Assembly (NCBI GenBank): GCA_028753945.1
Contig: JAPNXP010000007.1
Span: 806,001-870,000 of the forward strand
Source of the DNA: Hexactinellida sp. DTS-2022
Taxonomy: Eukaryota > Porifera > Hexactinellida
Reading direction: 5' to 3'
Length of the DNA: 64,000 nt
The position numbers and the translations under genes are program-made. A model generated the notes under the pieces. The model ran no database searches. It worked only from the letters and a program-made list of their open reading frames with translations, and was not told the origin of the DNA. Of the stretch, positions 4,401 through 57,400 are shown piece by piece (positions within the stretch are counted from its first letter, which is position 1; every line of letters starts with the position of its first letter).

Positions 4401-7400
4401 TCGGCGTTTCTCATGGATGAGGAGAGAGATTGTCGAGATGGAGAAAACACTTGCTCTTGTCTTCCCCAAGGAATGGAACGTTCTAGAAAGAATGTGTGGA
4501 GACTTTTGTATTATTACAAGGTAGAGAGTATTTGTCTATTAGTTCTATATTTACCAAACTACAGTCGACTCCGCTTAATAGAGCCACCGGTTAATAGATT
4601 TCTCCGCTTAATTGGGTCAAAATTTCACACGATTTATAGGACGGAATTACATTTAGGCTTAAAATATTTTATGTTAATAGATTTCTCCGCTTAATCGAGT
4701 CAAAGTAACCTGGTCCCGAGGTTACTTTATTAAGCGGAGTCGACTGTAATTCACAAAATATAGACTTTCGAATTAGTACTACAGTGTACTCTCGTTATAA
4801 CAAATTTCAAGGGCCCTTCGGTTATTAGTAGAGTAAAATCAATTACTTTTTCGTATTGGGAATAAATATACAGTGAACTCCCGTTATAACGAAGTGCTTG
4901 GGACCTGTAAATTCCTTCGTTTTACCGAATATTCGTTAATAGGATAAAATTAATGCATTTACTGCTCTTGGGGAAAATCTCCATTTCGTTATATTCAGTT
5001 ATTTCGTTATATCCGACATGTCTAACAAGGGAAATAATACGTTGTATACAGGAATACAGGCGTCGATGTTTTATGAATCACACAAAAATTTGGTTGGGGG
5101 TTGGCCAAAAAAAAGTTCCAAAAGTTTATAGAAGTAATTATTATTATAGAAGTTTTGAAAAAAGACCTATAAGTGATGAATAACAATGTGGCTTTAATAA
5201 TTTTAGGTATTAATCACCCATTGCACTTTGCACATTAATCTGTATAGTGAATATGTCTTCATCGTAAAGACAAAACAAATCCTTCAGCCTCTTGATAAAA
5301 ACTAGGGGAGCGAAAGGTAATCTGCCCCCCATCAACGACGCCTATGTACAGGGATACAAAATCAACCCATTGTTTGAAGAGATATCTTATATGTAGACCG
5401 TCTAGAAATAGACCAGGTTTTATTCCCTATGCATTAGTATTACCCATAAAAAGCAGGACAAGTGGTCTACAGAATTTATAGACGGTCTACAAATTTTTGG
5501 CTTATTTGTATGGGCTTTTATAGACCGTCTATTTCTAGACGGTCTACATATAAGGATGCTCTTGTTTGAATGGGTTGGTCGCCATCAAAAGAGTAATTTA
5601 AATTATTTAAATTATTTGTGTGTGACGTACCTCGAGGCTTCAATTCATATTTTCAGATAGTTTTTACAGTATTTACTATAAATTGTGTAAGGTTAAAGCT
5701 GAGGTTTTACTCTACATATTTATGATTACAGTATACTAACTTCTTTCCCTTCCACTCTTGGAATTTTCAGAAAATTAGGGATTCAAACCAACTATTTTAT
5801 TTTAATTAATTGTATACGTTAGACACAAGAAATACATAATTAGTTTTGGTTTACAAAAATTACTTTCCTATTAAAATGAGTAGACACAGTAATCTTATGT
5901 AATATAGTATTATTAGTATAGTATAGAATTACTATTGATTTTGTTGTATTTTCTGCTTAATAAGGATGAATGGCCTTAGTTATTCCAAATCCAAAATGAC
6001 AGTTGAATTATTGCTTTAGTTTCCAAAGGTATATATTTTGTTTACTTTTAACTAACAAGCATATTTTAGAACAGTATACCATCGCTAATCCGAAATTTCG
6101 TACGTACGTACCATTGCCATAAATTATTCGTCAGTAGTGGATACTCTACTACAGGGTTTCAACCAGGCGAGTTTGTAACGCGCCTGGAGCGCGTAAATTT
6201 GGATGAAAATTTTTCTAGACGCGCAAATATCGAGAGATGCTCCCATAGACTTAATACAAAATGAGTAATTTAGGCGCGTGTGAGCGATCTCAAACTAAAT
6301 CTAGGCGCGCGGGAAATTTGTTCTGGATGAAAGCCTGCTCTACTATAAGTATTTATGGATTAAGTAAGTATTATTGATTAAGAATCCACCTATACAATGT
6401 CAGTACAGTGGTGTTTGCCTAATAGCAAGTCACATTTTGCACAAAATATGCTTCCGAATAGCTAGGAAGCGAACTTGCTATTATAGGAACAAAATTAACA
6501 GTCAATTCCGCTTAATAGAGCAACCGGTTAATCGGTTTCTCCGCTTAATCGGGTCAAAGTTTCACAGGATTTAAAGGACAGAATTACAGTTTGGCTTACA
6601 ATATTTCCGGTTAATCGGTTTCTCCGCTTAATCGGGTCAAACAACCTGGTCCCGAGGTGGCTCTATTAAGCGGAGTCGAATGTACTCGCTTTGGGGACTG
6701 AAAATAGCAATATTATTGCTATTAGGCGAATACCACTGTATGTACTATGACACATTCAAAGTGTGATAACTGGCCGACCCACAGTTTCGTATTAGCGAAG
6801 GTATACTGTATTCAATTTAGAGTAGAATCTCGTTAATACGAACACCAGGTGACTGTCAAAACTCTTTGCCTTATCAGGGATTCGTATTAACCAGTGTCAT
6901 TTATATTAAAAGGCTTTGAAGGCGACTGAAATATTGTACGTATTGACCGGAATTTCGTATTAACCGTGTTCGTACTAACTAGGTTCTACTGTATTAATCG
7001 TGTTCGTACTAACGAGGTTATACTGTATTAACCGTGTTCATACTAACGAGGTTATACTGTATTAACCGTGTTCATACTAACGAGGTTCTACTGTATTAAC
7101 CGTGTTCATACTAACGAGGTTCTACTGTATTAACCGTGTTCGTACTAACGAGGTTCTACTGTATTAACCGTGTTCGTACTAACGAGGTTCTACTGTATTA
7201 ACCGTGTTCGTACTAACGAGGTTATACTGTTTGTTATTATATACTATAATAGGGAGGATTTGGTAGAACAACTTAACCTCAGATCTTCAGATATAGAAGT
7301 TAAACTGTTGTTATTCGCAATACAGAAGACAGCTGATTTCGAGAGATTATTAGCGCAGAGATTCAGCAATCCTGAAATTGTATGTTGGAATTATACAAGC

Positions 7401-10400
7401 TTAAAATATCACTTTCCTTAGTGGTACAGTAGAACTCTGTTAAAACGTATATATTCGGGATGGAAATAAGTTCGTATTATGATAAAATCCGAGTTACAAT
7501 ACGTGCTTTATTAATATGGTTATCAATTATTAAGTACTATGTAGAAGTGTGCCCTTACCAGGTATATCGAGTTATATTATATTTTATAAATACGTAGATA
7601 CAAAGTTATATAATACGTTAATTCTCCCTCACGTATAACTTGTAATATGTAATATATACGCGTATACAACTTAAAATTGCTACTTGTATCGTCTAATAAT
7701 TATAATACATGCGACTCCTCTTAATTGGGTAACTTTAGCCCAATGAGTTTGACCTGATTAAACAGAGAACCTATTTAACCAGGTGCTTCTATTAATTAAG
7801 CGAGGTATACTGTGTAATTGTATATGTATTTTATATAAAATCTGGGTTTGTGAACAAATATAATTGTTTAAAATTGGAATAATTAACATTTGTCATATTA
7901 TATATAATAAATTTTCCTTTTTCTTGCTTTAGGAATCTCAATCTGAAATATCTCCTTTTATGGGCATGATCTCGAAATGTTTCGAGAGACATTTAGATGT
8001 GTTTATAGGCGCACAGGATAAAAATCTGAGTGAACTATTAGAAGAGTTTGTTGAAGAAACTAAACGTAAAGATACTAAAAATAAAGTGAGTATTTGCTTA
8101 CTTTTCATTTCAATTTAAATAATTTAATGTCTGAGTTGCATACGTTTTGTATTGAGTTTCATATCAATTATTTTGTGTTGAACAGACATCTTTTTGTGCC
8201 ATAAGGGAAATTAGTAAAAAGCTTGTTTTTAAAAATACGTATCGAGTATGTGAATTAATTTTGTTACCTGTTAAAATAAATAGGGATTTATATAAGAAAT
8301 ATAATGTCGAATTAATATTCTGTAAGAATATAATATTTTGAAACCTCAAACTAAAAGGAATTAAAGCAAAACCTGGGTTTGTCATCATAAAAACTGTTCA
8401 ATAAGCAGGGAGTTTAAGCTGTGACAAAAATTTTAATGAAATTTTTTTAAGGATGAAATTGTCATACGTCATTACATTCGATCTTGTATAATCTGTTATA
8501 CAATAGTTTATTTAGTTAGTGACTACTCATTAGTGTAATAATACAGTCAGATTATTTTATTATAAACATTCAAGGGACCAAAAATTGTGTTCATCATAGA
8601 GAGACTTCATAATAAGCGAACTCAACTTAATACAAACCCTAAGTAAATTGTTAGAGCATCCTTATATGTAGACCGTCTAGAAATAGACGGTCTATAAAAG
8701 CCCATACAAATAAGCCAAAAGTTTGTAGACCGTCTATAAATTCTGTAGACCACTTGCCCTGCTTTTTATGGGTAATACTAATGCATAGGGAATAAAACCT
8801 GGTCTATTTCTAGACGGTCTACATATAAGATATCTCATTGTTAAATTGGGATCATAGGGCTTGTTCATAATAAAAAGTTCATACTAAGCAGACGGAATCT
8901 TGTTCACAATAATCAGACCTGACTGAATTGAGATTACTTGAGTCTTGACTTTTGTTATTTTTGGGACTAAATGGATTAATCTCTTATAAACTTTATCTCT
9001 TTTCATAACTCATTTTATAAACTAAAAAGATCATGCCAAAAGACCCAAGTTCATGAAAATATAATGAAATAACTTCAATTTAAACACATACACTAGATTC
9101 GAATATACGTACATGAGTGGGCGAATACAACAAAATAATTATTATACAGTAGAACCTCGTTACTCATTAGTACTAACACAAGGGGACCTTCAAAGTGCGT
9201 TCGCCTTATCTGGAATTCGTAATAACCAGTGTCATTTACATGGATAAGGCTTTGAAAGGGACTGAAATGGTGTTGATATTAACCGGAATTTCGTATTAAC
9301 CGTGTTCGTACAAACGAGGTTCTACTGTATTCCGCTTAATAGGGCCATCAGTTAATGGAGTCAAAACACACTCGATCCAAAGTCACCCAAAAATCAACTT
9401 TATGTTTTAGTTAGTTTGTGAGACATCAGATTCTAATAAATACTTTATAGCATAACTTGACAGTGTAGTATTATTAATAACATTATTTGTAACTATAGGG
9501 AACTGCTAGTGTAGTATTCAGCTCGTCAGGAGATCTGTTTGTGTTCTATAAGAAGTGTTTGGTCCAATGTATCACTCTTTCTACGAGCGCTCCTCTCCTA
9601 CATCTCTGTAACATATTCAAGAAATATCTCAGGGAATATGCACAGAGAATACTCATCAATCAAATACCAAAGTTTGTAACTATTCATATATACAACAGGG
9701 TTCATATGTAAACTACAGTAGAACCTCGTTAGTAGGACACGGTTAATACGAAAATCCGCTCAATACGAACTTTCTATTCCCTTATTTTCCATTATTTTCC
9801 ATTCCCGAGGGGTACGTTATAACCGAGTTCTATTGTATTTGAATACTACAAATTCATACAACAGATATTCAATGGATGTCGGTTATAAGAACATCGTCGG
9901 GAACTGCATATAATCTTCTTATAACCGACATAATTATAGGGTATATGGCAGAGTGGACCATGGGTCAACATTGGTGACCCATGACCCATTGACCCATTGA
10001 CTCATGACCCATCGCGTGACCCATTGACCCATCGAGTAACGCTTTGACCCATCGTGTTACCCATTGACCTATTTAAATATCTAAACATTATGTAACACAA
10101 TGCAACTTACAATATCTATATTATTAAATCTCGATTGTTGTGTGTGTGTGTGTGTGTTTGTGTGTTTGTTTGTCCGGATTGTATTAAAGTGATGGGGGAC
10201 TAGAAACCGCATTTATAATTGAGATAGAGACTAAGTTCCAAATGTTATTATAATAGGTAAACAAGTATGCTGAACACGAATTTCGCATTTACAAATTTGT
10301 AATACCGGTATGATTATTTATTGTTGTTGTTGACACAAATAAGAAACAAATTAATGAAAATTTCAAAATCAACCTAGAAGTTTGCTTTCAACGGATATTA

Positions 10401-13400
10401 TAGGTAAGCAAGTATGCTGAACACGAATTTCGCATTTATAAATTTATAATATGAATATTTGTTGTTGTTGTTTACACAAAATAGGTAAACAAATTAATTA
10501 AAATTCAAAATCAACCTAGAAGTTAGCTTCCAACGGGTATTATAGGTAAACAAGTATGCCGAACACGAATTTCGCGTTTATAAATTTCTCATATTAATAT
10601 TTGTTGTTGTTGTTTACACAAAATAGGTAAACAAATTAATTAAAATTCAAAATCAACCTAGAAGTTAGCTTCCAACGGGTATTATAGGCAGGGGCGTGCT
10701 GGGGTTGGGGGGCCCATGCGGGATTCCATTCAGAAAGTAATCGCAGTGGGGGCCTGCGGTCCCACAAGGGGGTCCCTAAGACGGCTCCCAAAGGGGGGCC
10801 CGAGCGGGAATCTCGCATCGATTGTATGGCCAGCACGCCCCTGATTATAGGTAAACAAGTATGCCGAACACGAATTTCGCGTTTATAAATTTCTCATATT
10901 AATATTTGTTGTTGTTGTTTACAAAAATAGGTAAACAAATTAATTAAAATTCAAAATCAACCTAGAAGTTAGCTTCCAACGGGTATTATAGGTAAACAAG
11001 TGTGCCGAACACGAATTTCGCGTTAATAAATTTCTCATATTAATATTTGTTGTTGTTGTTTACACAAAATTGGTAAACAAATTAATTAAAATTCAAAATC
11101 AACCTAGAAGTTAGCTTCCAACGGGTATTATAGGTAAACAAGTATGCCGAACACGAATTATGCGTTTATAAATTTCTCATATTAATATTTGTTGTTGTTG
11201 TTTACAAAAATAGGTAAACAAATTGATTAAAAATAAAAATCAACCTAGAAGTTAGCTTTCAACAGGTATAATAGGTAAACAAGTGTGCTTACCACGAAAT
11301 TCGCATTTATAAATTTATAATATGAAAAAAAAGTTAAAACTATGGAAATTTTCTAAATGGATGTATATAACTCCCTTTTCCATGGTAGAAAGGGTGAGGA
11401 GTAAGGCCGCATAGCGGCCGTTAACTTGAGGTGCGTAGCACCGATCCGTCGCAAAGCGACCGAGACCGAAGGGCTCGTATTTATTAAACTTGTAAATCAA
11501 TTACTTTTGGTAGACTTCTAAGTTCCATTACCAAAGAAATACCCTGTAATGTTTTTGGGTTAATTTGATTCGTACTATAACTGGACGAACATCGAAATTC
11601 CTAATGGGTCATGGATCACAGAGCCGTGACCCATGACCCATCTGACCCATCAATTTAAGTGACCCATCTGACCCATGACCCATCGACCCATGGTCCACTC
11701 TGGTATATGCAACCGTTTTCCAGTAGAATGTTCTTATAACCGACATAATTATATAGGGATATATGGCAACCGTTTTCCAGTAGAATGTTCTTATATCCGA
11801 CATAATTTTATAGGAATATATCATATATGGAAACCGTTTTCCAGTAGAATGTTCTTATAACCGACTTAATTATAAGGGGTAATATATGGCAACCGTTTTC
11901 CAGTAGAATGTTCTTATATCCGGTGTTCTTATAACCGACATCTACTGTATTTGTAGATTATCGGGGTCTTCTGCTGGCGGCATAAAGCTGTTGCTTAAAG
12001 AGACCGAGAGAGATAACTTTACGAAGGAAGAGAGTATGCTCGTGTGTGGTATCCTATGCACGGCAGATTATTGTTTGGAAACTGCTCAACAGGTATACGA
12101 GGGCACTGTGAAGTTCTTATAATTAATTAAAAGAGCATCCTTATATGCAGTGTATTATACAGCCATTTGTAAATACGCTCCCAATCCTGGTCTGATCCAA
12201 TTTTCATACGACAAATCACAATTTAATGTTACGGTATAGTAGAGATTCCAAATTTTCGCGCTCCTAAATTGAAATTTTCCCAAAATCATACTCTAAAAGG
12301 AGCGTCTCGCGCTCCTGGATAATTCCTTGCTTATATGTAGACGGTCTATTTCTAGACGGACTATAAAAGCCCATATAAATAAGCCAAAAATTTGTAGACC
12401 GTCTATAAATTATGTAGACCAAAAGCCCTGCCGTCTATGAGTAATACTAATTTGTAAGAAAACCTGGTCTAGAAATAGACGGTTTACATATAATTTATTT
12501 CTTAATTAAAATATAAAACTCCCAAGTGACTTGGGTCAAAGTTATAAATAGATTTGGCCCACTTTCAGTTTGAATTGAAACTGAATTAACTTTCAGTTTC
12601 ACTGAAACGTTCCTAGGCTTTAGTGTTCACTCGCGGTTCCTTAGGAAATGTGAAAGTGAAAGTAATTGAATTTCAATTGAAGTGAAATATGTATTTTTTC
12701 TATTTATATCTTGGACCCCATGTCATCCACGTCTTAATTAACCCTCGTCTGGCTAGGAATGTAAAATTGAAACTGAAAGTTAATTGAATTTCAATTGAAA
12801 GTGAAAGTGAAAGTGGGGTTTTTCTATTTATACCTTTTACCCCAAGCCAGCCGAGGGTTAAAAAATTAAATAAAAATTAATTAAGTTAATTAAAATAATT
12901 GTAATCGCTTTAAATACAAAATATTATAGCTACATAATATGTCAGTTGTGTTCCCGTAATAGCAAGTCGCATTTTGCACGAAATGTCTTGCTAATAGGCA
13001 AACTTGCTATTAGAGGAACAAAAAACTTGCTAATAGAGTAATATAATATTGCCATTAGAGCAATTGCTAATATATTATTAGTAATCTGTTACAGTTGATA
13101 CGGTTGTTTACATTTATAATGTAATATTTATTGGTAATTAATCAATTAATTCGTAAGGAAAATACAGAGTTGTTCAATAAGTAATATTTTGCTAAATGTC
13201 TAGTCTACTCATACTTAACAATACATACTTTGGAATTGTAAAAAATATAATTTCTTATCAATAAAATTTCAAATTGAAACAAATTAAGTTTATTGTCTAT
13301 CTCAATCCGTCGAATTAAGTAAATTAACCATTAATCAATCCAGTAATTGAAATGTTATTCAATTAATCTATTAGATACAAATCAGCAGTATTAATGTGGA

Positions 13401-39850: not shown

Positions 39851-42800
39851 TTATGTAAAGCTTCCTCTGATAGAGTACTCCTTCGCGACTAGTCTCAGTA
39901 CTTCTATAGGTACTGGATCTGGGCGTGAGAGCCTATCTACTACCAGTATCTCCAGCTGTCTGAGAGTAGGGATCAGGTTAGTGAGTGCTTCACACGACTG
40001 AGAGCTCTGGCCACAGAATTTTATATATAATGCCTTAATGGTTCGATGTTTGGCTAGTCCCTGGCACACAGCCAACACTCCAGCATCAGACAGGGTTACC
40101 TGCTGTAAGTTTAGATAAAGCAATGAAAGAAGACATTTCAGTGTGGGTGCCCATTGAGAACTATCATCAGATGAGATGGAAGTAAAGCACAGTCCTAGCT
40201 TGACTAGATTAGCACAGCTTTGCAGAGCAGCTAGGAATTCTGTCCATCTCTGGAATCCTATCTCTTCTAAGCTCCATAGCTCGAGTACACTTAGTGTGTT
40301 GCAATTCGTATTCAGTACTTGCAGTAGATTGTCAGATAATGATTTGTTAATTCCAGACTTTATCTCTAGATAGGTGAGCCCAGTCAGATGTGCCAAGTGA
40401 GGTATGAGGGAGTAGTCGTCATAATTAATTTCTGTTAACTGTGTGAGTTTAGGCACTAGTTCCCCCATCAGTCGTTCACTGTATCTAGATAGAGAGTAAG
40501 TATCGATGTATAGTCCCTTTATCTGTGTGGCTTGAGTTAGTGCAGGTAAGATGATGTCTGCGTATTCTGATTCATCAATAGACAGGTATTGAAAGTGTTG
40601 GGAAGATACAACATTGTTAGTTAGTTGGTGGAGTAATTCATTGGAGCATTTACTATCGTAGAGTCTCACGCCATTAATATATTGATTGGTAGGAGGAGAG
40701 AACAAAGCGATATCCGTAAGCTCCTCTATTTCACAATAGGAAAGCTCTATAGAAATACGAGTACGAACATTCAGATCAGTTCCGTTGATTAACTCAGTGT
40801 ACGCTAGGCTTTTCGCGCGTATTTGTTCAATTGTTTGTCGAAATAGGATCACTAACTGGTCGAGTTGGCAAGTTTTAATATCTTTCATCAGTGATTCGAA
40901 CTGTTCTATACTGATATGCCTTGTGTCGACATAAATCAGTTTAATGTGTTGTACCAGTTGTAATGACTGAATGAAACACAGCCACTCATTGGGGGACACT
41001 GGGAGTACCCAATTATTCAGGTATAGAGAGACAGATGAGGGAAGGAATAGTTTCAGGGCATTACGAATGTGGGAACAGTTGGACTCGATAACAATGGGGA
41101 TTAGATCGAAATATTTCTTAGTATGTTCGTACCAGCCTGTCAATGATAATAGATTTGTAATGTCATATCCCATTTGGTGGTAAAAAGGTAGATTATCAAT
41201 CGTTTCAGGCATTAATTTTCGGAAAAGAATAGTATGGAGAACAGCTGATCTCTCAATAAGTAGTCCACATAAAAACCTGACAACCATTTTGTAAACGGAG
41301 AAGTGCTCATTGCTATCAGCTATATAGCGCACACTCAAGCACTGTTTGGTCCAGGAAGTCGACTTCAGGAATATAGCAGAAGAGAACTCCTGCATGGTTA
41401 AATGCGCAAACGCCCACACCTTCTTCACAATGCCTACCGCTTCTTTGGTGTAGAATTCGTGCGCTAATCCCAAACAATGGCATTCCATCTCCACACGGTT
41501 AATGGTCATGGTGACAGTTTCCGTGGAAGTCAGTTCCCGACTGGCTACACCCAGCAATGCGATTCGTCCAATCTTGTAGAGACAATCCAACACGCATTTA
41601 TCAAACAATTCCAACTTTATTACTTTGGCTAATTCCTTCAGAGCCATCCTGGTGAGCTGTCGGCGTATCAAGTAGCAGGTCAGTTCTCTGTACAGTTGTG
41701 TTAGCGTCTCGATAGTCACCGACTCGTCCTTCAGGAGTGCCGCGAAGAGGGACGCATTCACGGGTATCAGAGACAGCTGGTTAATCTCGTCATAGCGAGA
41801 CAATAGATTCAACCACACTCCCAACTTTCTAAGATCCACAATTTGCTTCTCGAAGTAGAGGTCTCGATTCTCTGGGGAAAAGCCTAGCACCTGATAAAAC
41901 CTGTCAATGAGTAGTGTGTGCTGAGATGAAATATCTGTCCAAGCCCCCGGTCGAGTTGTCAGTATTATTGTGGCTCTATGCAGTGTCTGTCTGGTTAGCA
42001 TCATGTAGAGTAGTGACTTTTCAAATGGAATCTTTTTAGTGAACTCATCGAGTCCATCAAGTATCAACAGGAGCCCCTCTCCATCTGACTTTGCTAGATG
42101 CTTCGCTAGTTCTTTCGCCCAGTCCGAGGTCACAGGTAGTCCCAAGCACAACCATTCCTGGACATGTTCAGAGGTCACTACTTTATCTTCCTCTACGCGG
42201 GTGGATTCCATCGAATGCCAATCGGTGTTGCGACATGGGATAGCAATCGTGTACGAAATTTGTGAGAATTCTCGATGGCTAAATCTTAATGCTATCCTCT
42301 TAGAAAGGAAGGTTTTCCCACATCCGGGATTCCCGATGATGCACCAAATCTCAGGTTCCTCTGTATGATATGATTTCAATTCATTTGTGAAGTCTATCGG
42401 GGTTATTTCAACTTCTTTTCGAGCAATTTTCCTCAAATAGGCAATCTCATTATAGGTTGTTTCGTCTTCTAATCTCACTGGACGTGGCTTTTCTTTGAGA
42501 ATAGTTAGCTCCACATAGACACTTGTTAGGCTCACTGCATCATCATCTCCTAGGAGTTGGGTCACCATTTTATTCTGAATGTTGATGAATTGTTTCAATT
42601 TGTACTCCCATTGTTTAATTTCAGCACTTTGAAGCGTTAATTCTTTTTTCATTCGACCAACGAACTCATCTTCCGACATATCAACGAAAAGCGATTCGTA
42701 TTCTCTTAATTTCTTCGAAACATCCAAGCGACCTATTGACTCTAGCATTTCTTGCATTTTCTTTAGATCGCTGGTGATCAATTCATTTTCTAGGCATACT

Positions 42801-43216
42801 CTTATGATGTTATCAAAGTCCGTTTTACCATGAAATCCATCATCCAATGCAAATTCTAATACTAGCCATTCCCTCTGTGATATCTCGTTTCTCAACAGTT
42901 GTAATAGTGTTTTCATTGATAACTCGTCAGCGAATGATTCGGTTTGTCGTTTAGGTTCTGACACACATAGCTTTGGTATATTGAGAGCAATAGTTACTAA
43001 GTATGGACGGTTCAAGCTTGTCAATGCCTGGTGGAATGAATAGGGATCGAAGCCTTCCCATTTAGTAATGGCAGACAGGAATGTTATTACATCGCAATCT
43101 ATGTCACATATGTTAATCGGGACATTCATAAGAATTCTTAACTCGGAAATGTCTTCAATTTCTAATTCGTTTGATAATTCATTGACATATTTAACAACAG
43201 ATGTCTTTTGCGCCAT
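39851..43216 (-). CDS. NLR-type receptor: tandem DED-like, NACHT, LRR (single exon)
   Basis: 1121 residues. Residues 1-80 and about 93-175 are helical death-effector-like domains; the second ends with the DED-like RLDVSKKL and contains the acidic FALDDGFHG turn. Residues about 285-560 are a NACHT ATPase: Walker A GNPGCGKT at 295-302, Walker B LLLILDGLDEF at 382-392, and TTRPGAW sensor-like motif. A winged-helix/HD2-like helical stretch follows. From about 840 to the end there are leucine-rich repeats (LTYLEIKSG, LVKLGLCFTS, LLYLNLQQV). This is the receptor plan of intracellular pattern sensors; DEDs would recruit caspases or adaptors. Which ligand it senses is unknown. No intron or frameshift. 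It lies 775 bases from the Ttd14 start on the same strand. Confidence 0.88.
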   Translation of the reverse strand: MAQKTSVVKYVNELSNELEIEDISELRILMNVPINICDIDCDVITFLSAITKWEGFDPYSFHQALTSLNRPYLVTIALNIPKLCVSEPKRQTESFADELSMKTLLQLLRNEISQREWLVLEFALDDGFHGKTDFDNIIRVCLENELITSDLKKMQEMLESIGRLDVSKKLREYESLFVDMSEDEFVGRMKKELTLQSAEIKQWEYKLKQFINIQNKMVTQLLGDDDAVSLTSVYVELTILKEKPRPVRLEDETTYNEIAYLRKIARKEVEITPIDFTNELKSYHTEEPEIWCIIGNPGCGKTFLSKRIALRFSHREFSQISYTIAIPCRNTDWHSMESTRVEEDKVVTSEHVQEWLCLGLPVTSDWAKELAKHLAKSDGEGLLLILDGLDEFTKKIPFEKSLLYMMLTRQTLHRATIILTTRPGAWTDISSQHTLLIDRFYQVLGFSPENRDLYFEKQIVDLRKLGVWLNLLSRYDEINQLSLIPVNASLFAALLKDESVTIETLTQLYRELTCYLIRRQLTRMALKELAKVIKLELFDKCVLDCLYKIGRIALLGVASRELTSTETVTMTINRVEMECHCLGLAHEFYTKEAVGIVKKVWAFAHLTMQEFSSAIFLKSTSWTKQCLSVRYIADSNEHFSVYKMVVRFLCGLLIERSAVLHTILFRKLMPETIDNLPFYHQMGYDITNLLSLTGWYEHTKKYFDLIPIVIESNCSHIRNALKLFLPSSVSLYLNNWVLPVSPNEWLCFIQSLQLVQHIKLIYVDTRHISIEQFESLMKDIKTCQLDQLVILFRQTIEQIRAKSLAYTELINGTDLNVRTRISIELSYCEIEELTDIALFSPPTNQYINGVRLYDSKCSNELLHQLTNNVVSSQHFQYLSIDESEYADIILPALTQATQIKGLYIDTYSLSRYSERLMGELVPKLTQLTEINYDDYSLIPHLAHLTGLTYLEIKSGINKSLSDNLLQVLNTNCNTLSVLELWSLEEIGFQRWTEFLAALQSCANLVKLGLCFTSISSDDSSQWAPTLKCLLSLLYLNLQQVTLSDAGVLAVCQGLAKHRTIKALYIKFCGQSSQSCEALTNLIPTLRQLEILVVDRLSRPDPVPIEVLRLVAKEYSIRGSFT

Positions 43217-43415
43217 TCCTTCAGTCCTATAAGAAATAATACTACTATAAGGGGCAAGCTGCCAAGCATTTATTGAATGTTGATGTTGTCATAAGTTCAA
43301 ATCGGTTTTAAGAGTTACTGTCGTTTATTCGAATCGATTAATCGATTTAGAATTTAGAGTACTGTCATTAGTTTGGATGCACAGGAAAGTTCCGTTATAC
43401 CAAGTCGGAAAAACG

Positions 43416-43949: not shown

Positions 43950-44206
43950 AAACAGGTAGTATACTGATTTCGAAATCGCTTTTACAAATTCTTTTTTGAA
44001 TATTTATTGTTGTCTCCAAAAAGAGATAACAAATCTATTAAAATCCAAATGAACTTAGAGACTAACTTTCAAATGTTAAATATGGTAAACAAGTATGCTG
44101 ATTACGAATTCAATTTGTTCAAATTTTTAATGTAAATATTTATTGTCCATTCAAAAAAGCGAGACCGCGTAGCGGTTGATTTGTCCGTCGCGAAGCGAAA
44201 TTGGCT
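43950..44206 (+). mobile_element. Helentron-like element, decayed copy
   Basis: TATGTAAACAGGTAGTATACTG, a degenerate unit with GGTAAACAAGTATGCTGAT, then the hairpins ACCGC-GTA-GCGGT and GTCGC-GAA-GCGA. Confidence 0.6.
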
Positions 44207-44537: not shown

Positions 44538-44653
44538 ATACGAGCCCTTCGGTCTCGGTCGCTTTGCGACAGATCGGTGCTACGCACCTCAAGTTAACTT
44601 ACTCCTCACACGTTATGATTTTGAATTTTCATTAATTTGTTTACCTATTTGTG

Positions 44654-44702
<49 letters not shown>

Positions 44703-45563
44703 ATACTCATATTAGAATTTTATAAATGCGAAATTCGTGTTCAGCACACTTGTTTACTTATAATACCCGTTGAAAGCTAACTTCTAGGTTGATTTTGAAT
44801 TTTCATTAATTTGTTTACCTATTTTGTGTAAACAACAACAACAAATATTCATATTATAAATTTATAAATGCGAAATTCGTGTTCAGCATAATTGTTTACC
44901 TATAATACCCGTTGAGAGCAAACTTCTAGGTTAATTTTGAATTTTCATTAATTTGTTTACTTATTTGTGTCAACAACAACAATTATTCATATTAGAAATT
45001 TATAAACGCGAAATTCGTGTTCAGCATACTTGTTTACCTATAATACCCGTTGAAAACTAACTTCTAGGTTGATTCTGAATTTTCATTAATTTGTTTACCT
45101 ATTTTGTGTAAACAACAACAACAAATATTCATATTAGAAAATTTTAACCGCGAAAATCGTGTTCAGCATACTTGTTTACCTATAATACCCGTTGAAAGCT
45201 AACTTCTAGGTTGATTTTGAATTTTCATTAATTTGTTCACCTATTTTGCGTAAACAACAACAACAAATATTCATATTAGAAAATTATAACCGCGAAAATC
45301 GTGTTCAGCATACTTGTTTACCTATAATACTCGTTGAAAGCTAACTTCTAGGTTGATTTTGAATTTTCATTAATTTGTTTACCTATTTTGTGTAAACAAC
45401 AACAACAAATATTCATATTACAAATTTATAAACGCGAAATTCGTGTTCAGCATACTTGTTTACTTATTATAACATTTGTTTGCCAATTATAACATTTGAA
45501 AGTTAGTTTATATATATTACTGCGGTTTCTATTCCCCCATCACTTTAATACAATCCGGACAAA

Positions 45564-45612
<49 letters not shown>

Positions 45613-45632
45613 CAATCGAGATTTAATAATAT
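44538..45632 (-). mobile_element. Helentron-like element, reversed copy with minisatellite
   Basis: Begins (on +) CGAGCCCTTCGGTCTCGGTC, the complement of the hairpin 3' end, then about six 140-bp units with (CAA)n tracts, the CA microsatellite (about 45565-45610) and ends AACAATCGAGATTTAATAAT. Confidence 0.7.
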
Positions 45633-46175
45633 AGATGTACGAGCCCTTCGGTCTCGGTCGCTTTGCGACAGATCGGTGCTACGCACCTCAAGTTAACGGC
45701 CGCTGTGCGGCCTTACTCCTCACATTTTCTACCATGGAAATGGTAGATAGGGACGTTATGATTTTGATTTTCATTAATTTGTTTACCTATTTGTGTAAAC
45801 AACAACAACAACAAATACTCATATTAGAAAATTTAAACGCGAAATTCGTGTTCAGCATACTTGTTTACTTATAATACCCGTTGGAAGCTAACTTCTAGGT
45901 TGATTTTGAATTTTAATTAATTTGTTTACCATTTTTGTGTAAACAACAACAACAAATATTCATATTATAAATTTATAAACGCGAAATTCGTGTTCAGCAT
46001 ACTTGTTTACCTTTTATAACATTTGTTTACCTATTATAACATTTGAAAGTTAGTTTATATCCCAATATTAATTGCGGTTTCTATTCCCCCATCACTTTAA
46101 TACAATCCGGACAAACACACACACACACACACAAACAAACAAACAACAATCGAGATTTAATAATATAGATGTATG
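45633..46175 (-). mobile_element. Helentron-like element, second reversed copy in tandem
   Basis: Joined head to tail with the previous copy: ATATAGATGTA is followed at once by CGAGCCCTTCGG. Carries all four hairpins (GGCCGC-TGT-GCGGCC here) but fewer minisatellite units. Confidence 0.7.
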
Positions 46176-46347
46176 AAACTTGTCAATCAATTAATTTTGG
46201 CAGACTTCTAATACCAAAAAAATACCCTGTAATGTTTCTGAGTTAATTTGATTCGTACTATAACTGGACGAACATCGAAATTCCAAATGGGTCATGGGTC
46301 ACAGAGGCGTGACCCATGACCCATCGTCCACTCTGGTGAGAAGTAGG

Positions 46348-47103
46348 CCGCATAGCGGTTGTTGACTTGAGGTGCGTAGCACCGATCCGTTGCAAAGCGA
46401 CCGAGACCGAAGGGCTCGTATATTATTAAACACAATTCTTGTGTGCGTGTTTGTCTGTTAGCCCGAATTATATTAAAGAGAAAAGAAACCGCATTTATAT
46501 TCGAGATAGACTAAATAGAAAACAAGTATGCTGATTTCGGATTCCTCAATGAAAAATTTCCAATATTGTTTATTAAATAACTTATATGTAGATCGTCTAT
46601 TTCTAGACCAGGTTTTCTTTAATATAAAATAGCATTACCCATAGATGGCAGGGGATTTGGTCTACAAATTTTACCTTAGTTTATATGAGCTTTTCTAGTA
46701 ATAGACCTTCTACATATATGGATGCTCATGTTTATTGTTGTTGTTTACACAAATAGGTAAACAAATTAATGAAAATTCAAAATGAACCCAAAAGCCAGCT
46801 TCCAACGGGTATAACAGGTAGAGAAGCATGCAGATTTTGAATTTCGCATTCAGAAACGTCTAATAATAATATTTATTGTTGTTATTACAAAAAAAGGTAA
46901 TAAATTAATGAAAATTTAAAAAGGACCTAGAAACAAAATTCCAAATTTTAGAAAAGGTAAACAAGTACATATGGGATTATGAATTATAATTCTATTTTAT
47001 CAAATTTTTATTGTAAATATTAATATTTATTGTCATTGAAAAGAGCAAGACCGCGTAGCGGGTGATTTATCCGTCGCGGAGCGACCGAGACCAAAGGGCT
47101 CGT
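46348..47103 (+). mobile_element. Helentron-like 3' end plus a decayed forward copy
   Basis: Hairpin string 46348-46424 ends GGGCTCGTA, and TATTATTAAACACAATTCTT starts another copy directly after it; that copy ends at 47103 with GACCAAAGGGCTCG. A MU-E MITE (46578-46730) interrupts it. 47104-47817 holds nothing recognisable. Confidence 0.6.
46578..46730. mobile_element. MU-E MITE nested in the Helentron-like copy
   Basis: ACTTATATGTAGATCGTCTA to ATATATGGATGCTC. Confidence 0.75.
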
Positions 47104-51544: not shown

Positions 51545-52124
51545 AGATTGTATTAACAAATGATGGATTTGTATAATTAATATACCATTTAATCGGGGGC
51601 GCTTCATTTGTTAGAATTTTGGAGCTTTCACTTGTTAGAATTTTCTGAGCTTTCACTTGTTAGAATAATTTTAGATACCACCTTCACTTGTTAGAATAAT
51701 TTTAGATACTACCTTCACTTGTTAGAATAATTTTAGATACTACCTTCACTTGTTAGAATAATTTTAGATACCACCTTCACTTGTTAGAATAATTTTAGAT
51801 AATACCTTGAAGTTACCTTCACTTGTTAGAATGGTTTTTGTTTACTACCTTCACTTCTTAGAATCCATAATTTCAACTTGCATTTCAAGACGGATGTTTG
51901 GTTATTATTGTTTTTCAAAAGTAGTTGTCTACTATTTACTAAGTTCAGGCTTCATCAATTACTCAGTTATTTTGATTTTCATCAACATTTTCTTTTTTGA
52001 ATGGTGTCTACAAACAATGCTATTTATGGCGTTTCTTATTGTGGTTTTACAAATGATTATATTGAACAATGCGTTATATAAATAGTTGTAATAATGACAT
52101 AATTTATTACGAATAAGGATAGAA

Positions 52125-53066
52125 ATGGAATTTACAACATCTGACGGGAATAAATATATTAAATCGAAGCTTAAGGGAAATTATATCTACCTCAAATGCG
52201 TGTTATTTAGGAATACTTGTAAAGGAACGAGCAAATTAAATCGCGATACAAATTTGATAACACCTCTGAAGGGACACAATCATGATGTCGATGAATATAA
52301 GGGAGAAGTATATAGTCTAAAGACAAAGTGTAAAACGCTTGCTAAAAATTCACAAACCACTCTCAGAAAAGTATTCGATGATGCTACAAGAGACAGCCCA
52401 TTCGCATGTGAAATATCGTTTCCTCAATGTGAATTAACAACGTACCGTGCAAGAAAGACGGTGGAACCCAAAATACCATTGAACGCATCTGAGTTTGTTG
52501 ATATGATACATACCACCATTTTTGGTAAATATTTCAAATTTAATGTAACGAGTGGCGATCAAACTGGCGTTGTATTCTTTTCAGAACAAATGGCTGGATT
52601 TCTCTCAGAGATCACAAATATACAATTTGACGGTACATTTTTTACAGTACCCATACAGTTTGCTCAATTATGGACCGTATTTGTATCGGTTGGAAGGCAT
52701 AGTCTACCAGCTATACATTGTTTAATGACCGGAAAAAGTCAAGATTTGTATCAAGCTGTGATAGACAAGATCTTTAGCTGCATTCCCCACTTTCGACCAT
52801 TGGCATCAATGTCAGATTGGGAGCCAGCAGCCCGGAATGCAATGAAAAAAACACTTCCTCAGTTGGAAATTTATGGGTGTTGGTTCCATTTCACACAAAG
52901 AATTTGGGCCAAAACACAAGAGGTCGGACTCGCTCAAGCTTTCAGAAATAGTCAAGAAATCGAAAGTTACATAAAACAACTGATGGTTATTCCGTTTTTA
53001 CCCGCATCTCTGATAAATCCCACTTATGCTTATCTTCAGATACCAAGTTTGGGTATTCTGATATGA
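52125..53066 (+). CDS. MULE transposase, N-terminal part (FLYWCH finger and first catalytic residues)
   Basis: 313 residues. Residues about 20-54 form a FLYWCH-like zinc finger with C25, C32, H51 and H53. The MULE catalytic core follows: QFDGTF with D169, a MSDWEPAARNAM box with D231, and CWFHF with the C252-x2-H255 pair typical of MULE transposases. The reading frame then runs into a stop at 53064-53066 before the last catalytic residue, which is in the next frame. An older hydrophobic frame upstream (51807-52085) shows no transposase features. Confidence 0.85.
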   Translation: MEFTTSDGNKYIKSKLKGNYIYLKCVLFRNTCKGTSKLNRDTNLITPLKGHNHDVDEYKGEVYSLKTKCKTLAKNSQTTLRKVFDDATRDSPFACEISFPQCELTTYRARKTVEPKIPLNASEFVDMIHTTIFGKYFKFNVTSGDQTGVVFFSEQMAGFLSEITNIQFDGTFFTVPIQFAQLWTVFVSVGRHSLPAIHCLMTGKSQDLYQAVIDKIFSCIPHFRPLASMSDWEPAARNAMKKTLPQLEIYGCWFHFTQRIWAKTQEVGLAQAFRNSQEIESYIKQLMVIPFLPASLINPTYAYLQIPSLGILI

Positions 53067-53680
53067 TTAGACTACAAAAACTTAATAAATATTTCAAAAA
53101 AAGATGGTTGAGTCAAATCGAACCTGGGGAACTCTCAGTCTACAACCTCAATATTTCAACCAATAACGCAGCTGAGAGTTATCACTCTAAACTAAAGTCA
53201 CTAATTCGTACCTGTCACCCGAGGATATGGACGTTTATGGCTACACTCAATCAAGTTATACAAGACACGGACAACGACATTGGTCGGTTACAACTAGGCT
53301 TGGAGATTAGTAGACCAAGAAAAAAGAAAAATGTCCAGAATTTTGAACGTCGAAGGATAATAAGACAAAAACTAAGCGACGGAGAATATAATCCTTGGGA
53401 GTATCTTAAAGCCATCAGCCATACAATTGGCAGGATAAACACGAATGCCAATGTTCTCTCAAACGATTCGGAAGATTCTGACGACGAGGATACTAACAGA
53501 CCTGGAGAAGAAAATAAGTGTGTTGTATGCCTTGAATCCCGTAATGCTACCTGGATCTTTTTGCCCTGCAGGCATGCTAATTGTTGTCCAGGATGCAGTC
53601 AAAGAATTCAGGATCTAGGACAATCATGCCCTACATGTCGATCAGAAATTCAGGACATGTTTCAAATATTTACCAATTAA
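53063..53680 (+). CDS. MULE transposase, C-terminal part with RING finger
   Basis: 205 residues in another frame, overlapping the first part by ATGA. It continues the MULE fold: LNKYFKKRWL, then NNAAESYH where E38 is the likely third catalytic acid. After an acidic linker (SNDSEDSDDEDT, near 133-144) comes a C-terminal RING: C153-x2-C156, C169-x-H171-x3-C175-x2-C178, C189-x2-C192. The frame upstream of its ATG stays open and reads naturally into it, so the break is most simply a one-base frameshift near 53010-53060. Programmed frameshifting or a short intron are alternatives. Confidence 0.8.
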   Translation: MIRLQKLNKYFKKRWLSQIEPGELSVYNLNISTNNAAESYHSKLKSLIRTCHPRIWTFMATLNQVIQDTDNDIGRLQLGLEISRPRKKKNVQNFERRRIIRQKLSDGEYNPWEYLKAISHTIGRINTNANVLSNDSEDSDDEDTNRPGEENKCVVCLESRNATWIFLPCRHANCCPGCSQRIQDLGQSCPTCRSEIQDMFQIFTN

Positions 53681-54451: not shown

Positions 54452-57400
54452 TTAACAAACCTCTTCTAACTTGATCGGTAATGTTTTGTTGATGATAGAA
54501 TTCGGACTTTGATTCTCAGAGATAGGAACCGGTCTCTCCTCGGCCGAATCGATATTATCCCGGTCAATATCCTTCTGCAGATAATATGTAAAACCTATGT
54601 GATTAGCTTGAATAGGGAATTGTCTGTCAGTTAAATTTGGGTCAAATAATAAATTCGGTGCTTCGATTTTAATTTGAGATGATTGTGAATGTAAAATAGT
54701 TTTGTGGCTCATTTTAGGCGGGCAATAGTTGATTTGAGCGGGTGAATTAATTCCATTCGATTCCGTATTGTTTAATATCCATGGTGATTGTGTATTGTTA
54801 TCCTGGATCGAATGCTTTTTGTGTGACTTCCTAATTCTGTCCCTGACTTTATTCATATTCTCAATTGCGCCTGGCGGGAGCTGTATATCCAGGAGAGAAA
54901 TATTAACTCTGAGAGTTTTAGGTTTTCTGCCTCTTCTCTCTACGTAATCCTCGTCTCTGCTGGACTTCCTGTCGTTAGGACTGCAGGCACAACTTAATAG
55001 GAATTGGAATTACAGTAAACTCCCGTTATATAACCTTAGTTCAAAGTTAGTTGAATAATTCATTGGTTATATAAATGGTTGATAAACTTGTATAGTTAGA
55101 ATTTATTTTCCAATTGTGATCTTGATAGATAATGGCAGATATTCTATAACATACAGTAGAAACTCGTTATTACGAACACCAACAGAGGAAAAAAATGTTC
55201 GCTTTATCCGGAGTTCGTATTAACCAGAGTAATACCCATTGAATAGCTATTGTAGAGACCTTATTTTGTGGAACTGTTTGTTTGTCTTATCCGGAAATTC
55301 GTATTAACCGTGTTCGTACTAATGAGGTTCTACTGTAATTGAATATACGTAACGTACATATTATACAAGTAAATTTACTTGAAGATTCACTGATTAACAA
55401 ATTAGCAATAATCCTGAATTATTCATTTATTGTCTATTGTTCAATGAATTAGTCAACTTAGGTTATAACGAAGTCGGATATAATAAATACCCGCTTATAA
55501 CAAAGTTATAGTACCTATTAATGTCTGTCAAAACAAAATTCATTATTTTCAAACATAATATGAATATTTATTTTCTAATTTACAAATGAATCACGGAGAT
55601 TCCGTAGCGGTTGAGTTTTCTGTCGCAAAGCGACCGATACCGAAGGTCTCGTACACTATAAAGTAGGGCTGAAACGAATATACCGAATATTCGAATATTC
55701 GTTAGAAATGATTGAACGAATATTCGTTTGGACGAATATTAGATTGAAACGGATATTCGTTGACTAATTTTGGACAACAAAAATACTTTTGTATAGCTTA
55801 ACAGTGCCGTAGCCACCAATTAAAAGTGGTCAGGTTAGACCGGGCTGGATACAGTACCAACAGGGCCAAGGGTTCAGGTTAACCTGTCCAACCAACTAAA
55901 AGTGGTCAGGTTGAAACCTGACCAACCTGACCAGTGGCTACGGCCCTGCTTAAAGATATCGTAAATATAAATTCCCACTTAAACTAGCTGATTATTAGCT
56001 AACTTGTGTATAATACACTTTGTAACTATTATTATACCATTGTAACATTATCAAAACCTATTTTCCAATATTTTGACTCTAGAAATTGATTTAATGGTTA
56101 GTCATCCAAACGAACGAATATTCGAATATTCGTTCGTTTAGAAAATGGTTCGTTCGTTACATTTCGAATATTCGTTTCAGCCTTACTATAAATGTTATAG
56201 GAATTTAATCCCGCAATGAGAGATCACAAGATACAATTAGTATGATCCCATAATGATTTTGTACTCAAAAGGTTAGTCACGAGTTGTTACGTAATGTACT
56301 CTGCTGTAAGGTGAGTACAGTAATGATATCATATAGCAATAGCAGAACCTATGTAATTGATATTAACCCATAGATTGTAGTATGAAATATCCAAACGTCA
56401 CTCACTAGTTGCTTTATTGAAACTTAATGCAATCTATAGGAACTGTGAATTCATATCATGGTCAAAGGTTTGATATTTTCCACATTTTTAGGATTGACCC
56501 AATTTTATGCTTTCTCTCCACCAAAAATACAGCCATTCAAAAGCCATAAGAACACCAAAACATTTCAAATTAATCCCGGATTATAAATAGATAGGATTAT
56601 GCAGAGTTTATTGTCAAAAAGTTGTTTATACACACAGGTATAGCATCTTCTAAACACGTTATTAATATGATTTTTATAATTTCCAAAATATGTCATAAAA
56701 TTTATTTCAGCATTCATATATCCCAAATAAATCATTTGCAAATCCAGTAATATTTAATACCAAATCAGTATTGAATAAAACATACCTCATTCCATCAATC
56801 ATATATTGTGAAACCTAAAGAATATTAAAATAAATTAATAATATAATCATCTTGTGACATAAATATTGCAATCATGATATTCTACCTAGCAAGAAGTTTA
56901 TAGTCGAAACCGGTTTTTCTAACCAATCCTTTGCATAGAAATAAAGTAAGAAAAATCTGATAGTTAGAATAACCCGATTGAAAATAAAACAAAATTGGAA
57001 TTTCTTACACATTTAGAATAAGAAAAACCCGGTGTTAGAAAAAACAGTTTCGACTGTATCAACAATATTAATAGTCAGCCTCATTTATTAATACACAATT
57101 ACATTAATTCAATATGCCAATGGATTGAGGGTTTTTCATTGTATTTTGCGAACCACATTTTTATGGTTTATTTCCCTAAAAACCATATTCCCCATAGAAG
57201 CATTTGAATATCAAATATTTGATTACCGTATCTCCTGTAGTTTCAATTACACTAATAAACACCTGTTAAGCTTAATGGATTATAAGGTCACATTACGTAC
57301 ATTATACTTACTGTATGTACAATACACTGTTCGTTATCCATGGTTGAAAAAACTAGGTAATACTTTGGGGAATACTGACTTAACCCGCTGATAACCACTT

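Follow-up and report, generated by a model that had tools for sequence, protein, structure and literature searches.

The string of four small DNA hairpins at positions 11405-11477 of the window (the whole stretch of 64,000 nucleotides that was analyzed) forms the last 73 bases of a Helitron-type element. Its identity as a Helitron-type 3′ end is nearly certain. The whole explanation, i.e., that the string serves an abundant rolling-circle family of Helitron type as 3′ terminal signal and acts as a single-stranded-DNA terminator or address for the Rep nuclease, is put at a probability of about three in four.

The hairpin array and its recurrence

All four hairpins lie on the forward strand. Hairpin 1 (H1, 11405..11419, GGCCGC-ATA-GCGGCC), hairpin 2 (H2, 11430..11442, GGTGC-GTA-GCACC), and hairpin 3 (H3, 11448..11460, GTCGC-AAA-GCGAC) have perfect stems, and hairpin 4 (H4, 11461..11477, CGAG-A-CC-GAA-GG-G-CTCG) has an imperfect stem with an A.G mismatch inside. 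The four nearly adjacent hairpins with three-base loops that had been described in the first-pass annotation are present, H4 with its mismatch. The final base of H4 is the 3′ terminus of the element and is paired in the predicted fold. Folding of the single-stranded DNA formed all four hairpins (-21.1 kcal/mol, z -3.6, 1 of 200 shuffles as good), and the predicted energy was nearly equal on the two strands (-21.1 vs. -20.1).

The number of hairpins alone is weak evidence, as the densest 75 nt hold three perfect 5-bp triloop stems, a number that dinucleotide shuffling of the window attains in 17 of 100 cases. Triloop stems are not enriched in the window (149, vs. 151, 148, and 176 for loops of 4-6 bases). 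Among the triloop stems in the window with at least four G/C in five, 12 of 14 are located inside copies of the block. The 22-mer of H4, GCGACCGAGACCRAAGGGCTCG, has 953 + 922 = 1,875 exact matches in the 112.4-Mb genome, and the reversed 22-mer, used as control, has none genome-wide. A chance origin of the hairpins is ruled out by this genome-wide recurrence and not by their number. The H4 22-mer was absent from the viral contigs searched.

Ends of the element and the insertion site

The non-autonomous element extends over 10115..11477 (+), begins with TCTATATTATTAAATCTCGATTG, ends with CTCG, and lies between a host A (10114) and a host T (11478). Its 5′ terminal sequence (10115..10137, +), taken with the preceding A, has 692 exact matches genome-wide and is also found upstream of Rep genes. 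When elements were compared with 38 further loci, the conserved sequence ended after GGGCTCG, with T as the next base in the elements listed. The earlier statement that the hairpins end a mobile element is supported: they form the precise 3′ terminus of an element of Helitron type that has a Rep-helicase gene of its own. The 692 exact 5′ 24-mers stand against the 1,875 3′ 22-mers, and many of the 3′ ends are therefore paired with a 5′ end that has diverged or is of another kind.

The ends were counted in 29 of the 39 elements above 300 bp, eight being excluded as they lacked TC before the 5′ motif and two as they stood in tandem with the next element; two of those counted border another element on one side (L028 and window 44541-45635). 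All 29 start as A|TC and are followed directly by T. Thus, flank position -1 was A and position +1 was T in 29/29, and position -3 was A in 25/29. No target duplication was seen at the 29 elements or at three or more paralogous empty sites. The joined flanks of L011 (in L015), L014 (in L028), and L023 (in L014 and others) correspond to paralogous uninterrupted sequence with an exact join, and the element of L043 is inserted in an (AAT)n repeat whose phase is kept across the element.

Past the insertion point, the consensus reads T A T A T A T T A, in register with the 5′ end of the element, TCTATATTA. Targets matched the 5′ end of the element at a mean of 5.34 of 9 positions, vs. 3.90 with each flank shuffled (0 of 20,000 shuffles); register offsets of -2, -4, and -6 gave 4.7-4.9 matches, so that plain TA alternation is part of the signal. 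This resemblance fits one nuclease treating the donor 5′ end, the circle junction, and the target alike. Perfect head-to-tail junctions, CTCG|TC, were found at seven places.

The autonomous form and its Rep-helicase gene

The Helitron Rep profile gave at least 151 matches in the genome, and family 1 was separated from the other Rep matches by score and frame length rather than by a tree. The exact 5′ 24-mer was located 1.8-3.4 kb upstream on the same strand in five of the seven best-scoring family-1 Reps on C1 among the matches listed; random places have such an upstream 24-mer in 2.2% of cases, and none of four Rep matches of other Helitron families has it. Weaker, broken Rep places on C1 (10806237, 10833173/10833403, and 11332542/11332829) were left out of the seven; inspected by eye, these three have no 5′ 24-mer within 5 kb upstream, and the count with them is five of 10. 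Downstream, the H4 22-mer was found within 15 kb on the same strand in 4/4 family-1 Reps among the matches listed, at 7.5, 7.8, 9.4, and 13.7 kb.

By their coordinates, both ends are accounted for in two elements, C1:2899280-2909993 and C1:5909405-5920003 (10.6-10.7 kb). In the first of these, the tail (L057) corresponds to the short elements read only over about its last 86-97 nt; that block is therefore the part common to autonomous and short elements. The autonomous 3′ flank outside the hairpins (at least 290 bits) occurs at 15 places. At eight of them, the Rep matches listed include one on the same strand, 6.5-7.5 kb upstream; at the other seven they include none in that orientation, and at one of these seven a Rep match lies on the opposite strand. 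The protein of L048 contains PF14214 and the start of PF05970 (PIF1-type helicase), of which the first ∼44 domain residues are seen. A motif search identified the HUH and two-tyrosine motifs in nine of 10 Rep loci, and Rep reading frames reach 1,930 residues. Together, the coordinates and the domain content of these sequences show an autonomous form of ∼10.6-10.7 kb with Rep (HUH, two tyrosines) and PIF1 helicase, whose ends are shared by many short non-autonomous derivatives.

A second Helitron family is represented by many frames of ∼1,700 residues, e.g., at C1:5540541 (+), C1:9199953 (+), and C1:7551999 (-). These three places and C1:6346940 lack the 5′ end of the hairpin-array family.

Copies in the window and subfamilies

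The block had been reported to recur at least seven times. This holds for the whole or partial block (11405, 44541-, 45640-, 46344, 44160, 47049, and 55598) and does not hold for the complete array, as all four hairpins are present in only three of the seven (11405, 45640-, and 46344). A second full element of 530 bp with all four hairpins is located at 45640..46169 (-), head-to-tail with a third full element at 44541..45635 (-) that lacks exactly H1. The four-hairpin 3′ end at 46344..46418 (+) is directly followed by a sequence resembling the 5′ end, and its H1 contains two G.T pairs, in agreement with the wobbles noticed earlier near 46.4 kb. Subfamily C, described below, is represented by a degraded 3′ end at 44160..44199 (+; GACCGC-GTA-GCGGTT and part of H3), a 3′ end at 47049..47102 (+; an H1-like hairpin, H3, and H4, no H2), and a diverged, related 3′ end at 55598..55651 (+). 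The paired change of G:C to A:T seen earlier near 44168 is real and is the majority state of subfamily C in the five copies aligned. The element at 10115-11477 contains internal tandem repeats (10250..11326, +) with a unit of ∼142 bp, broken near 10688-10843.

Other features were observed in the window. Another repeat has two copies 93% alike (11523-11642 and 46206-46325), close to which these elements stand in opposite orientation, and tandem repeats occur elsewhere at 6923-7296 (34-bp unit) and 51621-51839 (31-bp unit). At 39854-43288 (-), one uninterrupted frame encodes 1,145 residues that include a NACHT domain and match LRR weakly. Two frames overlap at 52098-53680 (+); a MULE transposase domain is found in the first, and the second ends, as judged by eye, in a RING-like cysteine pattern. 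The genes of the window (ribosomal protein S9/S16 family, PLOD, NACHT, and NHL) point to an animal genome.

In the sequences read, 78 blocks were identified, all by means of H4, so that any ends without H4 would have escaped. Subfamily A, with H1-H4, is the main form. Subfamily B has an 11-bp hairpin (ACAAAAGTCGC-GAA-GCGACTTTTGT), H3, and H4, and its equivalent of H2 has a broken stem. Subfamily C has H1 as ACCGC-GTA-GCGGT, no H2, and both H3 and H4, and subfamily E has H2 as GGCGT-GAA-GCGCC. Searches with one E and one C copy gave at least 40 matches each, of which eight E and five C copies were read. The CTCG 3′ end is the majority sequence of A, C, and E and is present in 10/10 B blocks. 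Compared with shuffles, the DNA folds of E (z -3.0), B (z -4.1), and the autonomous end (z -4.0) were stable, and one subfamily C end folded weakly (z -1.5, 18 of 200 shuffles as good). In E, the T.G closing pair of H2 leads to a wider predicted loop.

Exact sites without precisely H1 number 16 genome-wide, including window 44541-45635 (-). Together with the absence of H2 in subfamily C, they indicate that not every hairpin need be essential. The 16 may represent one mobile subfamily or deletions that happened repeatedly; such a precise deletion of H1 would fit a hairpin formed in single-stranded DNA. Single hairpins may conceivably have arisen as mobile palindromes, which are known from mitochondria. 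On the minus strand of L040 (3707), a tail keeps H1 and then diverges, with no H2-H4 in the 120 nt seen.

At L013:4134, L018:4558, L019:4392, and L024:2959, an A element begins directly after a subfamily B 3′ end, in each case at the same base (TATTATTAAATCTCG). This may reflect either a single composite element that was amplified or self-insertion that recurred at one position. At L019:1313-4392, six B-type 3′ ends are arranged head-to-tail, 556-826 nt apart, upstream of an A element.

Conservation of loops and stems between and within subfamilies

The loops of 14 hairpins from the four subfamilies were tabled: ATA/ACA, GTA, AAA, and GAA in A; GCA, GAA, AAA, and GAA in E; GTA, GAA, and GAA in C; and GAA three times in B. 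All 14 are purine-N-A on the top strand, with G as the purine in 11 and a C:G closing pair in 13; the table omits H1 of B (GAA, C:G-closed) and the broken H2 of B, and the majority loop GAA of H3 in C represents two of five copies. G-N-A loops are a known class of very stable DNA mini-hairpins. Single copies break the rule with the loops GTT, GTG, and AAC, so mutation alone does not keep the loops purine-N-A. In the phage N4 hairpins, extrusion and stability depend on C:G as the closing pair and on the G and A of the loop, and the single-strand-binding protein (SSB) melts the complementary hairpin and not this one (excerpt of PMC4496689). Three of the 14 loops begin with A, and the N4 rule does not cover these; for AAA loops, a title cited in PMC5430850 names a sheared A.A closure.

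The stems were compared in an alignment of 43 of the 78 blocks (A 29, E 9, C 5), outside which stood 21 A blocks identical to others or with indels (including L046), two C blocks, all 10 B blocks owing to their different architecture, and two unclassified blocks. The A copies were those that matched the window query best, and they are hence young and biased to it. The structure was paired in 95.4% of the cells of this alignment. Between the majority sequences of the subfamilies, four of 22 pairs differed, all four still paired, and two had changed on both sides: in H1 of C relative to A, pair 2 changed from G:C to A:T and pair 1 to G.T, and in H2 of E relative to A, pair 3 changed from T:A to C:G and the closing pair to T.G. 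In a simple simulation with three stem substitutions per lineage, all pairs were kept with a both-sided change in each lineage in 2.1e-4 of the runs.

The covariation check proposed in the first-pass annotation gave a divided outcome on the aligned copies. Cells changed on both sides (14 vs. 3.9) and the covariation score (0.105 vs. 0.082) exceeded all 500 shuffles, but both are inflated by relatedness, and neither the number of pairs with a both-sided change (3 vs. 2.4 expected; 204 of 500 shuffles) nor that of further pair types (15 vs. 15.2; 388 of 500 shuffles) was above the shuffles. Within subfamilies, 63 pair cells had changed, of which 40 were broken, and no both-sided restoration was seen among the 63. 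Such decay is what copies that no longer move should look like when derived from structure-selected masters. The earlier claim of selection on structure accordingly stands between subfamilies, where 4/4 changed pairs were kept (two of them both-sided), and not within them, where 40/63 were broken. As judged from the alignment, selection on structure is supported between lineages only, from few independent events, the compensation consisting of two both-sided changes. It had also been proposed that the lack of an excess of compensatory changes across many copies would refute the claim; applied to individual copies, this test would mislead because most transposon copies usually no longer move, if the same is true here.

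Proposed role of the array and alternative explanations

By analogy with Helraiser, the array is most likely a single-stranded-DNA terminator or recognition array for the Rep nuclease. The earlier suggestion of rolling-circle termination or protein binding is retained as the best reading. In Helraiser, the best-studied relative, the single 3′ hairpin is a leaky terminator; a change of loop and closing pair lowers the activity as far as deletion of the hairpin does, a swapped stem keeps ∼90% of it, and the element without the hairpin still moves at a reduced rate (excerpt of PMC4778049). In the sponge element, the top strand would be displaced as a single strand, on which the short stems would fold. 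The purine-N-A loops, nearly always C:G-closed, could mark one strand only, as in N4, and those of the C:G-closed G-N-A type could withstand the single-strand-binding protein as at N4 promoters. The hairpins would stall the helicase and/or bind the Rep domain, which would cut after ...GGGCTCG, in analogy with Helraiser. The 5′ end, the joined circle, and the target may be cut by Rep at similar sites, A|T followed by a TATATATTA-like sequence, of which the consensus is observed and the enzymatic step is presumed.

A more specific model is tentative, and we consider it possible but doubtful: the lineage may have replaced a single terminator hairpin by modular, C:G-closed purine-N-A mini-hairpins, most of them of the N4-promoter type. 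The loops would mark the transferred strand and survive the single-strand-binding protein, Rep would read a multi-hairpin address and not CTRR, and the subfamilies would gain, lose, and re-pair modules.

The alternative that survives best, though rather unlikely, is that only H3 and H4, or H4 alone, terminate, and that the others, further upstream, are passive remnants or former terminators that accumulated through read-through and the capture of new 3′ ends. All four subfamilies contain H3 and H4 (H4 partly by construction, as the blocks were found by it) while H1 and H2 vary or are lost, and Helraiser makes new 3′ ends by read-through (excerpt of PMC4778049). A neutral leftover should, however, decay, whereas H1 and H2 carry the paired changes between subfamilies and their loops stay purine-N-A. 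Exact H1-bearing sites also number 382 vs. 16 without H1, with patterns of differing length.

It is improbable that the palindromes are kept perfect by a mutational process, i.e., template switching or hairpin-templated repair, and not by selection. The B copy at L024:2959 has the loop of the 11-bp hairpin inverted (TTC for GAA) on an intact stem, the product expected of hairpin inversion or template switching, and the deletion of H1 precisely at its base at 16 sites points the same way. Such a process is at odds with the changes within families, which mostly break pairs (40/63) with no both-sided restoration seen, and it leaves the purine-N-A loops on one strand unexplained.

Still less probable is a role of the array as RNA, as the 3′ transcript end of the element or a processing signal. 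The strand folds as RNA too (z -3.1, 1 of 200 shuffles as good), but H4 is then predicted to shift to a four-base loop, the G-N-A loops are those of a known DNA mini-hairpin class, and the block is kept in short elements, e.g., window 10115-11477 and 45640-46169. A scan of the window with Rfam found no family at gathering score, which also speaks against this role; a tRNA scan of the window found none. Finally, chance GC-rich palindromes in a hitchhiking repeat can practically be dismissed, for although 17 of 100 shuffles reach three perfect triloops in 75 nt, the block is an exact element end, is common to autonomous elements, and has a 22-mer with 1,875 copies.

Comparison with known systems

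The array had earlier been contrasted with Helitrons as having four triloops where these have one 3′ hairpin. In fact, the array itself terminates an element of Helitron type that carries a Rep-helicase gene of its own. Of the features that define the Helitron superfamily, Rep (HUH, Y2) and a PIF1-type helicase lie between the ends, as linked by coordinates, and there is no target-site duplication. Of those of Helitron1, the 5′ TC and the insertion between A and T were found in 29/29 elements. The 3′ end is CTCG and not CTRR, and in place of one palindrome of 16-20 nt lying 10-12 nt before the 3′ end, H4 is at the terminus, H3 is 17 nt before it, and H1 and H2 lie further up. A comparison of the first and last 150 nt of the window element showed no exact (sub)terminal inverted repeats of at least 8 nt as in Helitron2/Helentron, and the insertion is at AT and not at TT as in Helentrons. 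By gene and insertion, the element is a member of the Helitron superfamily; it is not a canonical Helitron1 and, by the features tested, not a Helitron2/Helentron.

Canonical Helitrons (Helitron1; Helraiser/Helibat1 of bats) are alike in the Rep-helicase between the ends, the 5′ TC, the A^T insertion without target duplication, the 3′ palindrome, the head-to-tail copies, and the non-autonomous derivatives with the same ends. They differ in the 3′ end (CTRR, here CTCG), in having one hairpin instead of three or four, and in its position ∼11 nt inside, whereas the last hairpin here is at the terminus. The loop of Helraiser is ATT (excerpt of PMC4778049), unlike the purine-N-A loops of the array. 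In maize, nine of 35 Helitrons have a markedly strong 3′ hairpin (excerpt of PMC2575219). End-finders that demand CTRR and one hairpin would probably miss families of the present type. The strong multi-hairpin end, the 1,875 exact copies of the last hairpin motif, the natural variants with loss of a single hairpin, and the long Rep frames make the way in which Helitrons recognize their own 3′ end directly testable.

Helitron2/FoHeli of Fusarium shares the short C:G-closed GAA triloops, with AGCC-GAA-GGCT at a FoHeli 5′ end (excerpt of PMC5148889), and differs from the present element, which has no inverted repeat of at least 8 nt between its ends, AT insertion, and a hairpin series at the 3′ end. 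In Helentron/HINE/DINE-1 elements, too, non-autonomous derivatives carry tandem repeats in the center and a stem-loop at the 3′ end; these elements differ in their subTIRs, which were not found here, and in TT instead of AT insertion (excerpt of PMC4067079). The early-promoter hairpins of phage N4 are alike as C-(G-N-A)-G triloop DNA hairpins with strand asymmetry (excerpt of PMC4496689), a comparison of how they may work only: they are unrelated, belong to promoters of a phage RNA polymerase, and differ in the three of 14 loops that begin with A here. In the open-licence PubMed Central literature, no title or beginning of an abstract was found on a series of 3′ triloop hairpins in Helitrons. 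The multi-hairpin, loop-constrained 3′ end is a variant of the Helitron 3′ end.
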